From contig JAULBX010030041.1 of the NCBI GenBank assembly GCA_032358255.1, forward strand, positions 62,001 to 126,000: a DNA stretch of 64,000 bases. The letters are read 5' to 3'. This DNA comes from Heterotrichella gracilis (taxonomy: Eukaryota > Sar > Xanthophyceae > Tribonematales > Xanthonemataceae). The position numbers and the translations under genes are program-made. Below, piece after piece: positions 1 to 64,000 of the stretch. The notes under the pieces are model-generated. The model was given only the letters and a program-made list of their open reading frames with translations. It did not search any database and had not been told where the DNA came from. The first letter of the stretch is position 1. Each line of letters opens with the position of its first letter.

Positions 1-2657
1 TACCCTCCCCGTAAACTCCACCTCGGCCCTACTAGGGCATTCTCTTGCCGCGCCAAGGGGGGCGCGCTCGATGACCGCGGCAGGGGAGGAGGCGCACAGC
101 TGCGCCGCAGGGGGGGGGGGAGCCAAGGGGGGCAGGTCGAGCTTCAAGTCGCCCTTTACGCGGGCGGCGCTGGAGGACGGGGCGCATGCGGAGGTGGGTG
201 GTTAGGGTTTTGACTTTGGGGAGCAAAACCCTTGGGGTTGGTATCACCCTTCTTACTTATATACATGCGTTCCAGCGATACAGCCAGATTAGCAGTCTGT
301 CCCTCACAGACAGAGGCGCAATCTGTCTGTCCTACATGCCTTATATTAAAAACTCTAGCTTGTTTCATTGCAGCCTGCATGGATTACATGTATCAGAATG
401 TAGGGCATCAACCTGCCTCGATTTGCTTCCACCCACCCACCCATCCAAGTTGCTCCATGCCGCACCAACACCCCCACTCACCACAAACCCTCAACCCTCA
501 ACCCTAAAACCCACCCACCGCCCGCCACAGGCTGCCACCCATCCGGGCCACGCCGCTCCACACTCTGCCCCTGCCTTCTTGCCACCTGGCGCTCTACCAG
601 CCACCGCCACCGTGGCGGAGGAGTCAGGGGGGGAATCTGAGAGCAACCTGGAGGTGCTTGGGGGCCTGTCGGAAATGTCCGACATTGTGCGCAGCATCTA
701 CAAGGGGGTGCTTTCGGACCCGGAATTAAAGCCCTTTTTCGCTGGGGTGAACATGGCACACCTGCTGGCGAAGCAGGTGAGGGTGAACTGGAGTGATTGA
801 CAGTGGTGGCTGCAGAGATGTGACGGCAATTGTCCCCTCCTGCCCCTTTTCTCCAACCAAGGGTAATAACATAATAAACATAGACGAGGGCTGTTGATAC
901 TATCTCCAAGGGTAATAATCTGATAATAGGACCCTCCATTATCTTATTACCCTTGTTATCTCATTACCGTTGCTCATACCAACAAGTCCCCATTACCCCC
1001 CCTCTCAGACGCAGTTCATGGCGTTCCTGATCGAGGGGCCCGACTGCTACAAGGGCCGCAGCCTGGGTGCGGTGCACTGGCGCCTGGTCAAGCAGATGGG
1101 TCTGAACCGGGGGCACTGGAGGGGATTCGAGGGGCACATACGCGCTGCGCTGGTCAAGCACGCGGTGCCTGAGGTGGGTGAGGACAGGAGTATTACTATC
1201 TTATTACCCTTGGTGAGGGTGAGGATGAGGGGGAAAGGACAAGGGCGGTGTATGTGTGCGCTCATCGTACACCCCTGTGCACTACCAAATACCCTACATG
1301 ACAGGTCCAAAACCCCACTGCCTGTTAACCAAAACCCCGTCCCTAGGAACCCACCACCCCTACCACACACCACATGGAGACCACCAAAACCATGTCTACA
1401 ACCCTGCCAACCCCCATTCCCATTTTCACTCCCCAGGACCTCACCACCCGCATCATGGCGCACGTGGACACCACCAAAAAGGCCTTCCCAGAAGTCGAGG
1501 CCCCATCCCCACAAGACACCGGCAGCAACCACAGCGTCAGCGGAGGGGGTGGGGGGTCTGTGGTGCAGGCCATGGGTGGCCTATGGGCTGTTTCGGCTGT
1601 GGTGGAGACGCTCTACGAGACCATGCTGTCTGACCCGCGGATCGAAAGGTTCTTTGCAGGGGTGAACGTCAACAAGCTGATGCGCAAGCAGGTGCGTCAC
1701 GGTATTCGCGGTAAAATAATGCCAAATAATAAAGAAAATAATGAATAATAAGGGTGGTTGTCAACATGCTGATGCGCAAGCAGGTGCGCCACGGTTTTTG
1801 CAGTGAAAATGGCCAAATAAGGAACACTCCATGCATATCAGCGAAGTCTTTTCTAACCCCTTGCATGCCCCCCCCTCCAGATCCAATTAATGACCCTCAT
1901 TTTCGAGGGCCCCACCCCCTACAAGGAGAGGGACCTGGCCAAGTGGCACGAGCAAACTCTAAGCCTTAATTCCTACTGCTGTTTCACGCATGTCACTGAG
2001 CCATCCCCAAATCCCTCACCCTGTCCCGAAGCCATGCATATCAGCAAAGGCTTTCCTAAACCTTTGGCTGCCCCCTTCCAGATCCAGTTTATGACCTACA
2101 TTTTCGAGGGGCCCACCTCCTACAAGGGGAGGGACCTGGCCAAGGTGCATGAGCGCATGATCAGGGACCAGGGCCTGAACCGATCCCATTGGCGGGTCAT
2201 GGTTAGCCACATAGAGACTGCGCTGGCCCAGCACGGGGTGTCAGAGGTAAGGGTTAGGGTTTAGGGCGTGTCAGAGGTAAGGGTTTAGGGTTTGTCAGTG
2301 CCCTAGTCATGGACATCCTGGTCAAGGTCTATAATACAGTACTCTCCAGGCAAGGGAGCACTAGGCAATTTTGCCGATGGCTGCTGGGAACGCCTATGAC
2401 TGTATTTGTAACTGTGCAATGTAGCATGTTCTGCTGGTGATGTGCATTTCCTCCCCTTGTGCCCACACTCGCCCCCTCTTCAACCCTTAGGCTCAGATGC
2501 ATTTCCTCCCCCTGCGCCCACACGTGCATTCAATCCATTTCCACCCCTTGCGCTCACATGTGTTTCCCACCCCCTGCAGGAGCTCATTGCCCGGGTGCTG
2601 GCCAACGTGGAGACAACCAAGCACGTCTTCCCACCCGCGTCTTCAGAGGACGACTGA
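1..2657 (+). CDS. Two-domain truncated (2-on-2) hemoglobin, possibly 5' partial
   Basis: Exons 71-193, 531-776, 1009-1173, 1437-1691, 2082-2246 and 2580-2657 join in phase 0 into about 343 residues. Two group-1 truncated globin domains are visible, at about residues 84-197 and 222-340, linked by a Gly/Ser-rich spacer. Each has the B-helix motif ending in Tyr (residues 98 and 238), an FFAGV segment, a GP-x-x-Y-x-GR segment and a proximal His in the F helix (residues 146 and 286). The matching exons of the two domains are equally long (165 bp) and share the same phase, so the protein arose by internal duplication of three exons. Truncated hemoglobins bind heme and are linked to NO and O2 chemistry in algae. 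The ATG at 71 is the first in frame, but the frame stays open to the window edge, so the true start may lie upstream. The introns hold decayed copies of the exon edges. Confidence 0.93.
1667..2160 (+). repeat. Partial exon copies inside hemoglobin intron 4
   Basis: The last bases of exon 4 and its donor (about 1667-1711) recur at about 1757-1800. A copy of the 5' part of exon 5 with about 50 bp of its upstream intron lies at about 1832-1960, against the functional 2033-2160. The exon-5 copy keeps a CAG acceptor and encodes a FEGPTPYK-like segment, but it loses similarity before the conserved LNRSHW part, so it is probably skipped. Confidence 0.85.
2240..2295 (+). repeat. Duplicated exon end, donor and telomere-like repeat
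   Basis: The end of hemoglobin exon 5 with its donor and the following TTAGGGTTTAGGG sequence occurs twice in a row (about 2238-2265 and 2268-2295). The donor GTAAGGGTTAGG runs directly into plant telomere-type repeat. Confidence 0.85.
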
Positions 2658-62367: not shown

Positions 62368-64000
62368 CTACAGCCTCGCATGCCCGCTTGACTCGCTGCT
62401 GCTGCTCCCCCCTTGGCCCGCCACCAGCCTTTCTATCACCATAGAGGAGGCGCCCCCCCCACCATTGCATATGGCCGCCACCCCCACGCGCCCCCCCTGC
62501 CGCGCCAGCACGTTGACCAGCGTCACCAGGATGCGCGCACCGCTGGCGCCCAAGGGGTGGCCGATGGCCACCGCCCCACCAAACACATTCACTCTGCAAG
62601 GGATGGGAGGGCAGTGGGTCATCTGAATGTGCGAGTATCTGTGCGGATAATTGCATGGGCTCGCTGAAGAATACACAAGTGGGTTCCGGTCAACCCAATT
62701 TGGGCACAGAAGCCAGTGCATGTCTGTTTTTGCGCTAAATGTGCCAAGGAAGCAGGCAAGGAGGCGAGGACAGAAACTTGTAGCTGTTCTATGCTTGCAG
62801 CGTGGACCAAACAATCATTCAACGCACTGCAATGTGAGCAGTCCCTTGACATGTAATCACCCCAAATCAAGAGACCCAACCTAACAGGAAAACAGCGACC
62901 TTTCACGCCGCGAGGATTGTGCGCAGCTTGCATACCTTTCCGGATCCAGGCCCAAGATCTTCTGATTGACTAGGTCCACCATGGAAAAGGCCTCGTTTAT
63001 CTCAAAGTAGTCCACGTCAGCCAGGGACAGCTGCGCGTGCGCCAGAGCACGAGGCACCGCCAGGGAGGGGGCGGTGGTGTAGCGACGGGGATCCTGCGAG
63101 GCGTCCGCCATCCCCAAGACGCGCGCCAACACCTGCAAACCCATTGCAATTGTTAGGGAGTGCGTAATCAAAGAAGAAGACAGTAATGCAAAATAGAAAC
63201 CAAAAAGCACACCTACACATGAACAGGCGATTTCAAATCAGGAATTCATCAGGCTTACCAGCAGGTCTAGCTGCACGCTGTTTCAGCTCTGGTCGCACAC
63301 CTTCAATTCCTAAGCCCTAAACCTTTCCCTCTAAACCGCCCGCATGGGCGTACCGGCAAACCCAGCCTGCGTGCCGTCTCAGCACTGGTCAGCAGCAGCG
63401 CAGCAGCTCCATCGGTGATGGGCGATGCGTTCCCAGGCGTGACGGTCCCGCTCCCGTCGGACCTGAACGCCGGCCGCAGCGCTCGCACGCGCTCCGCATC
63501 CATCTTGGAGATGGCCTCATCGCTGTCAACCACGGTGGGGGGCTTGCCGCGCACACCTGGCACCTCCACTGGGATCACCTCCTGCATAAGGTGTTTAGGG
63601 GTTTGGGTTTAGAGCTTTACTTCCTAATATGTGTAGGGTTTAGGGTTTAGGGTTTAGGGGTCAGTGGTTAGGCACTGCGTGATCATATGGCACAGACATA
63701 TGGGTCCCTCCATTGAGACCACCTCCTGCACAGGGTGTGTATGGATATGGTTGAGGATGTGTATGGACATGGTTGAGGGCCACTGAATAGGCATTTCCCA
63801 TAAAACAGAAAGGAACAACTGCCTCGTGCCAACCTAAGCAAAGGGTATGGCGGCTGTTGGCCAGTTGCACTAAAACCCTAAAACCCTAAACCGCCTACCT
63901 GCTGCGCATGGCCCGCCTCGTAGCTCACCCGGGCCCGCTGGTACCCTAAACCCTGAATACCTAAACCCCAAAACCCTAAACCGCCTACCTGCTGCGCATG
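62368..64000 (-). CDS. Acetyl-CoA C-acetyltransferase (thiolase), 3' part, peroxisomal signal
   Basis: Minus-strand exons 63581-63354, 63132-62936 and 62593-62368 are in frame; a short exon or exon copy lies at about 63940-63900 ([11 protein letters not shown]), and the gene continues beyond the window. Thiolase landmarks are [64 protein letters not shown] (catalytic His) and [15 protein letters not shown] (catalytic Cys). The protein ends SSGHARL; the final ARL is an accepted plant-type PTS1, so peroxisomal import is likely. The enzyme interconverts two acetyl-CoA and acetoacetyl-CoA plus CoA. The nucleophilic Cys of the N-terminal half lies outside the window. Confidence 0.95.
63590..64000 (-). 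repeat. Telomere-like repeats and duplicated exon end in the thiolase gene
   Basis: CCGCCTACCTGCTGCGCATG occurs at about 63891-63910 and again as the last 20 bases (63981-64000). On the coding strand each is an exon end, CATGCGCAGCAG, followed by donor GTAGGCGG and TTTAGGG units. Further TTTAGGG arrays lie at about 63633-63660 and 63870-63890. Confidence 0.88.

Follow-up and report, generated by a model that had tools for sequence, protein, structure and literature searches.

Copies of exon edges and telomere-type repeat tracts at splice junctions in a 64-kb window of Heterotrichella gracilis nuclear DNA

Results

Genes and gene models of the window

We analysed 64,000 nt of intron-rich nuclear DNA from Heterotrichella gracilis (Xanthophyceae), positions 62,001 to 126,000 on the forward strand of contig JAULBX010030041.1 (assembly GCA_032358255.1), here called the window. 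Two features lie beside its splice junctions: decayed copies of exon ends or starts within the neighbouring intron, and tracts of the telomere-type unit TTTAGGG. A preliminary description of the sequence had reported exon-edge copies, splice site included, in eight genes (hemoglobin, peroxiredoxin, BIN4, a large gene, IF-3, CHERP, NCS1 and thiolase). All counts below refer to this one 64-kb window.

The gene models comprised 61 introns and 118 exon edges and were our own, predicted from the sequence alone. For 35 introns the borders were set by hand, with one end left open in 4; the other 26 came from a small hidden Markov model (HMM) with splice matrices trained on those hand-placed sites. 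The hand-placed introns lie mostly in regions that were read on account of their tracts, which is a possible bias. The names BIN4, CHERP and hemoglobin were taken over from the preliminary description. Eleven of the 20 exons submitted to Pfam had a match at E<=0.01. Support was found for IF3_N, AhpC-TSA, Thiolase_N, Thiolase_C, Transp_cyt_pur (NCS1), Surp and SWAP1_C (CHERP-like) and U-box, and matches below the curated cut-off for globin, short-chain dehydrogenase and TLC-domain. We found no relatives in the collections of genome contigs and viral contigs that were searched. Donor-plus-tract patterns in viral contigs (1 and 3 loci) were set aside, being read as phage from their long open reading frames.

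Telomere units are in excess and lie at exon edges

TTTAGGG occurred 30 times in the window, compared with 5.8 ± 2.5 times in 100 shuffles (maximum 12). Degenerate telomere-like tracts scoring at least 12 numbered 18, where each of 6 Markov shuffles gave 0 and 8 permuted heptamers gave 0-4. In all, 32 tracts were scored, with 26 used for the flank-repeat test and 23 for the edge tests, the last set being every tract of score at least 10 except 19414-19426 (score 10, inside a predicted exon). Exact multi-unit arrays of 3.7-3.9 units lie at 58075-58101 and 63634-63659, and the remaining tracts are degenerate; exact arrays of three or more units suggest that the sequence derives from telomeres and is no chance motif.

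The exact TTTAGGG units were distributed as 24 in introns, none in predicted coding sequence and 6 elsewhere (2 of these 6 in the thiolase donor series at 63.9 kb), whereas 133 same-letter control heptamers had means of 3.1, 1.2 and 4.8. The count elsewhere was 6 or 7 for six of the seven rotations of the unit. There was little TTTAGGG excess outside introns, the exception being the rotation AGGGTTT, with 20 occurrences elsewhere and 33 in introns.

Eighteen of the 23 tracts were intronic, and 12 of these 18 lay within 30 nt of an exon, against 4.4 expected (p=1e-4). A scan of 2374 7-mers in the 45 nt beside exons ranked three telomere rotations first, above the donor consensus AGGTAAG; across whole introns a C-run led. 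When the tract map was rotated against the gene map, neither the 18 intronic tracts nor the 14 tracts at edges were matched by any of 1719 rotations. In models made up of HMM introns alone (150 junctions, the splice matrices again coming from the hand-placed sites) the result was weaker and still held: 19 of 23 tracts were intronic (rotation mean 9.2, reached by 0/1719) and 10 of 23 lay at edges (mean 3.2, p=0.0017).

Exon-edge copies exceed chance and are maximal at the junction

We aligned each edge (45 nt of exon plus 10 nt of intron) locally with its own intron, and used edges of other genes and introns of other genes as two nulls. Under these nulls 19 and 20 of the 118 edges reached p<=0.02, with 17 in both and 2.4 expected, and 18 of the 118 scored above both null maxima. 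Of these 18 copy edges, 12 were hand-placed in known genes besides the large gene, 3 belong to the large gene (including the one labelled H5) and the rest are in HMM introns. They cover all eight genes of the preliminary description, together with a U-box gene and an unnamed gene at 23934-25637, and its judgement that the pattern is beyond chance held under both nulls and in the association of tracts and copies with the same edges (p=0.008, below). Sixteen of the 18 alignments span the splice junction, and LG3 and H11 are the exceptions. The outer copy preserves the reading frame and the inner copy decays within the intron.

With tracts and simple repeats masked, local copies were found for 17 of the 118 windows, 8 at the 61 donors and 9 at the 57 acceptors. 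The same measure gave 11/345 on the intron side at positions 60-150 nt from the junction, which may overrun short introns (Fisher p=5e-5 for junction against these deeper positions), 1/117 in the exon direction, 19/1817 in other non-coding DNA and 21/580 in coding sequence. Self-similarity was thus maximal at the splice junction, and intron-ward only. A scan for local direct repeats at 10-500 bp with a score of at least 13 gave 50, where about 2.8 were expected from far diagonals, although its low-complexity filter removed some true copies (BIN4).

Tracts and copies are associated with the same edges

A telomere tract lay between edge and copy at 7 of the 18 copy edges: globin intron 4, peroxiredoxin intron 4, BIN4 intron 11934-12244, IF-3 intron 22178-22567, thiolase intron 1 (acceptor side), thiolase intron 2, and NCS1 intron 60654-60877, where the copy is weak. 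A tract stood within 45 nt of 14 edges, and 6 of these carried a copy, compared with 12 of the 104 other edges (odds ratio 5.8, p=0.008). When the spacers were scored for 20 heptamer classes, the telomere class was best in 7 of 18 (p=2e-4). Hidden decayed tracts were sought in the remaining spacers and in the 104 edges without a clear tract, and both stood at the level of other non-coding DNA, save for a tie for second place in globin intron 3. Directly repeated flanks were found for 6 of 26 tracts.

The preliminary description had presented the copies as joined to their edges by telomere repeats, which describes a minority only, the other 11 of 18 having no tract between. It had placed units between copy and edge in six genes; this was borne out for globin, peroxiredoxin, BIN4, IF-3 and thiolase, and is weaker for the large gene, where an exact 13-bp repeat (14575-14587/14733-14745) brackets two tracts, yet the edge is outside the 18. 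As it had implied, CHERP and the other two NCS1 edges show no clear tract between the copies.

Copies in individual genes

In the globin-like gene (plus strand), the acceptor edge of intron 2 (1340-1479) has a decayed copy at 1340-1389 and its real sequence at 1430-1479, with the exon starting at 1437 (37/50 identical, shift 90). The donor edge of intron 3 (1660-1817) has its real sequence at 1660-1726, with the exon ending at 1691, and a copy at 1752-1817 (55/67 identical) beyond an AT-rich spacer without a clear tract. For the acceptor edge of the same intron (1829-2154) the copy is at 1829-1953 and the real sequence at 2032-2154, with the exon starting at 2082 (105/125 identical); a weak decayed tract at 1954-1975 abuts the copy end (score 9.5, tied second of 20 heptamer classes). 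At the donor edge of intron 4 (2235-2293) the real sequence at 2235-2259, with the exon ending at 2246, and the copy at 2265-2290 are 24/26 identical and are both followed by telomere units (tract 2248-2293), so that the match is partly made of units common to both copies. On the acceptor side of intron 4, the sequence TTTCC..CCCC.TG is present in some four versions at 2443-2579, of which the last is the real acceptor. Globin introns 1 and 2 (857-955, 1197-1212) contain a word TTATTACCCTTG / CAAGGGTAATAA in the two orientations, and it recurs in the large gene near 18425; it is perhaps a small dispersed repeat.

Among the minus-strand genes, the donor edge of peroxiredoxin intron 4 (7814-7989) has its real sequence at 7910-7989 (exon end 7924), a tract at 7884-7915 and a copy at 7814-7892, with 66/80 identical; with the tract masked, two 64-nt copies lie flush with it on both sides, at 7883/7916. 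A BIN4 acceptor edge (11897-12037) has the order copy (11997-12037), tract (11974-11992) and real sequence (11897-11937, exon start 11933), with 37/41 identical. By reading frame, another BIN4 intron (11563-11755) would start with GC (AAAG/GCACGT). The IF-3 acceptor edge (22145-22257), whose exon matches IF3_N, is arranged as copy (22221-22257), tract (22189-22222) and real sequence (22145-22181, exon start 22177), with 32/37 identical. Elsewhere in IF-3, at 21801-21925, a 30-bp direct repeat stands around a G-run with a short N stretch, a possible assembly problem. The word GTCAGT follows three tracts and was tested as a telomerase RNA trace; it was not significant after correction for the number of words, and beside the IF-3 tract it is part of the exon copy. 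The CHERP-like donor edge (42015-42351), with SWAP1_C in the exon, has its real sequence at 42202-42351 (exon end 42284) and a copy at 42015-42152 (115/153 with gaps), and tract-like stretches there are weak.

In thiolase (minus strand), the donor edge of intron 2 (63252-63390) reads real sequence (63347-63390), tract (63309-63337) and copy (63252-63294), with 32/44 identical. The acceptor edge of intron 1 (63563-63750) has a copy at 63707-63750, a tract with 3.7 exact units at 63587-63672 and its real sequence at 63563-63606 (35/44 identical). On its donor side a series at 63873-64000 holds two 18/18 identical segments, 63983-64000 and 63893-63910, with a tract behind each of them (63943-63982 and 63873-63892), and continues past the window end.

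Copies without a tract are found at three plus-strand donor edges: in the large gene (18649-18905; real 18649-18714, copy 18840-18905, 52/66 identical), in the U-box gene (31065-31220; real 31065-31127, copy 31152-31220, 46/70 with gaps) and in NCS1, in a Transp_cyt_pur exon (58745-59182; real 58745-58939, exon end 58824, copy 59010-59182, 145/196 with gaps).

Some edge tracts have little or no copy beside them. A tract lies directly at a BIN4 donor (GTAAACCCTAAACCC; 10956-10974, minus strand), where we found no edge copy. In the large gene (plus strand), tracts lie 16 nt ahead of an acceptor (16568-16604) and 3 nt past a donor (18186-18209), both with weak copies, and 22 nt past another donor (17782-17836), where an acceptor-edge copy (17845-17877; real 17983-18013) lies beyond the tract, not across it.

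Two paralogous F-box-like genes, at 4907-6235 and 39008-40371, have near-identical starts (MATIHSL..., VCKAWKEALDVPSA). In the region of the second, at 39481-39719, lies an exact tandem duplication of 119 bp, a length not divisible by three.

Intron lengthening or intron birth

We examined 57 introns for donor-junction sequence repeated in register at the acceptor junction. Such junction-to-junction repeats were not in excess across the 57 introns (permutation p=0.40), and intron birth by insertion was rejected as the main reading on this ground. The clear candidate is the predicted large-gene intron 14587-14744 (14575-14753, plus strand), with the exact 13-bp repeat TTGTGACCCCAGG at its donor (14575-14587) and acceptor (14733-14745), tracts inside it at 14596-14620 and 14682-14729, and a register p=0.0003. 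This intron may be insertion-born, or else it may consist of acceptor copies in series, as further decayed versions of the same edge lie nearby. A second exception is thiolase intron 2 (12/13, p=0.006).

The globin-like gene (1-2660) has two tandem domains with introns at matching places and could be used as an internal clock. Its copies matched their own edge better than the paralogous edge (36/41 vs 29/44; 63/73 vs 43/73; 37/51 vs 32/55; 19/20 vs 12/20), which points to their having arisen after the domain split, in pre-existing introns. Median intron length was 327 nt with copies and 258.5 nt without (p=0.024; hand-placed introns only, p=0.052). The preliminary description had proposed a process that lengthens introns, and the paralogue comparison, the longer copy-bearing introns and the lack of a junction-repeat excess give it indirect support: the copies probably lengthened introns already present.

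Matches between different introns consisted of telomere units only in 16 of 20 cases, and the other 4 were 16-31 nt long. An introner or dispersed element was rejected, the introns having telomere units alone in common.

Discussion

Proposed repair of breaks near splice junctions

We propose that breaks repaired near splice junctions may have left small tandem duplications, sometimes with telomerase-made filler, and we put the probability of this, the likeliest of the readings considered, at about 0.45. In its favour are the junction maximum of the copies, the enrichment of telomere rotations and tracts at edges, the telomere class in the spacers, the repeated flanks of some tracts, the exact arrays, the globin paralogues and the near absence of anything but telomere units common to the introns. 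The copies would be the scars of these repairs. A break with long overhangs, for example from nicks on opposite strands, would be filled in on both sides and joined, and the overhang would be duplicated; the route could be CST-guided Pol alpha-primase with end joining at 3' overhangs. Extension of that 3' end by telomerase ahead of fill-in would give copy, TTTAGGG units and copy, in either orientation. Because CST normally completes telomeres, a telomerase-extended overhang would bring telomere units into the product, and we infer that CST fill-in and telomere insertion may act jointly here. The intron would grow, and the event would be tolerated since the splice site is duplicated along with the exon edge. 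As for the gathering at junctions, our guess would be transcription- or splicing-linked nicking. The preliminary description had offered a similar interpretation, break repair at exon-intron borders with telomere-repeat addition and local duplication, which overall is partly supported.

Several observations weigh against this proposal. Eleven of the 18 copies have no telomere tract between, and edges without a clear tract resemble the remaining non-coding sequence, with a mean rank of 12.2 of 20 for each. The purity of a tract did not correlate with the identity of its copy (rho 0.10, n=8), which suggests that tract and copy may be separate events, and the use of the two measures as a clock was dropped for the same reason. 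Tract orientation followed no significant pattern, and a strand rule for donors and acceptors was rejected (p=0.33). Tracts follow both copies in globin intron 4 and in the thiolase donor series, an arrangement that also fits an order in which the tract came first. General repair would be expected to leave extragenic tracts too, where there is little excess (AGGGTTT reaches 20), and the known repair steps leave the clustering at splice junctions unaccounted for. A wider claim would make splice junctions hot spots of telomerase/CST-linked edge-duplicating repair, and this repair a main intron-lengthening route that occasionally makes a new telomere-repeat intron (14587-14744 may be one); this we consider doubtful, and we would lean against it.

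Alternative explanations

The alternative that survives best, though unlikely in our estimate, is survivorship alone: duplications and telomere insertions would fall everywhere, be purged from coding interiors and stay recognisable longest at exon edges, where one copy is under selection. The near absence of exon-direction copies (1/117) and the absence of TTTAGGG from predicted coding sequence agree with this, as do the many self-similar intron windows (88/1065, with the edge copies and overlapping windows counted in). However, deeper intron (11/345) and other non-coding DNA (19/1817) are equally tolerant and hold fewer copies. Exon constraint also adds little visibility, the intronic parts of the copies being 79.7% similar (344 nt) and the exonic parts 84.1% (574 nt; p=0.09), and the tracts, which are visible without an exon, cluster at edges all the same. 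Survivorship accounts for the absence from exons, not for the lower numbers in the intron interior and in intergenic DNA.

It is improbable, in our view, that the tracts came first, fragile telomere sequence of any origin near splice sites provoking tandem duplication beside it. The enrichment of copies at tract edges (6/14 vs 12/104) and the tracts after both copies noted above would follow from that order, but the majority of copies lack a tract between, and the edge location of the tracts themselves is left unexplained. Less probable still is an aid to splicing, the tracts being retained as G-runs past donors or as C-rich sequence ahead of acceptors, and a second splice site being tolerated or useful. 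Tracts do start 1-22 nt past eight donors and end 5-40 nt ahead of six acceptors. Yet C-rich tracts also occur at two donors and G-rich tracts before three acceptors, the enriched 7-mers are telomere rotations and not general G-runs, and exact multi-unit arrays have no splicing rationale. Least probable is that the introns were born by insertion with duplication of the target site, or hold an introner-like mobile element. The tract-filled intron 14587-14744 and thiolase intron 2 speak for this, while across the 57 introns junction repeats show no excess, telomere units are the sole common element and the tract-plus-copy units lie mostly at one edge of a longer intron.

Relation to known systems

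The component steps of the proposed break repair are known elsewhere, and their combination and placement at splice junctions seem to be new. A literature search that covered few subscription papers or preprints found no account of splice junctions with both telomere repeats and edge copies.

In mammalian interstitial telomeric sequences, telomere repeats were inserted at breaks, with flanking duplication at 6/130 rodent and 4/25 primate loci (Nergadze 2007, PMC2246262). They resemble the window in their short internal telomere arrays, some with duplicated target flanks, for which telomerase was proposed; the window shares the excess of units, and 6 of its 26 tracts have duplicated flanks. They differ in their TTAGGG unit, in duplication being a minority class and in that the accessible text describes no splice-junction link. 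Mouse and human cells form small tandem duplications at 3' overhangs by a route that needs CST-guided Pol alpha-primase and end joining (PMC8355091, PMC5730883). Like the closely spaced copies of the window, these duplications are head-to-tail and tens of bases long; they arise from overhang breaks, are end-joined and are tolerated. Unlike those of the window, they follow CRISPR-made breaks in mouse or human cells, with no telomere filler described in the parts available.

Repeats at intron-exon borders have been interpreted as repair scars (Rogers and Bendich 2025, PMC11782384), but these are repeats of 4-30 bp shared by the two ends of an intron and taken as a sign of its insertion, whereas the window copies represent one edge within its own intron. 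Introner elements of Amoebophrya (PMC7789003) likewise show intron-linked sequence gain with direct repeats. The window lacks the same element in many introns, telomere units apart, and its introns mostly pre-existed; the junction repeat expected of an intron-creating insertion is not in excess over the 57, with one clear candidate.

Dispersed AAACCCT in Eimeria (PMC4287421) is a telomere heptamer frequent away from chromosome ends and mainly outside coding sequence. Its arrays have 6-14 units, however, and the accessible sections describe neither exon-edge placement nor edge copies. The plant telo-box AAACCCTAA (PMC2576244) is the identical heptamer in genes, but telo-boxes lie from about -60 to about +140 relative to the transcription start, while the window tracts lie at internal exon edges, such as that of the last peroxiredoxin intron.

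Implications

What we infer about generality, targeting and mechanism comes from the sequence of one 64-kb window. For annotation, the decayed edge copies call for caution, as they bear working-looking splice sites. The lengthening of introns, and why it happens in certain lineages, is poorly known. With a readable scar of copy, telomere units and copy, intron growth would become datable event by event and would be tied to the action of telomere enzymes on breaks inside chromosomes. If splice junctions are real break hot spots, transcription or splicing would be linked to a specific type of mutation.

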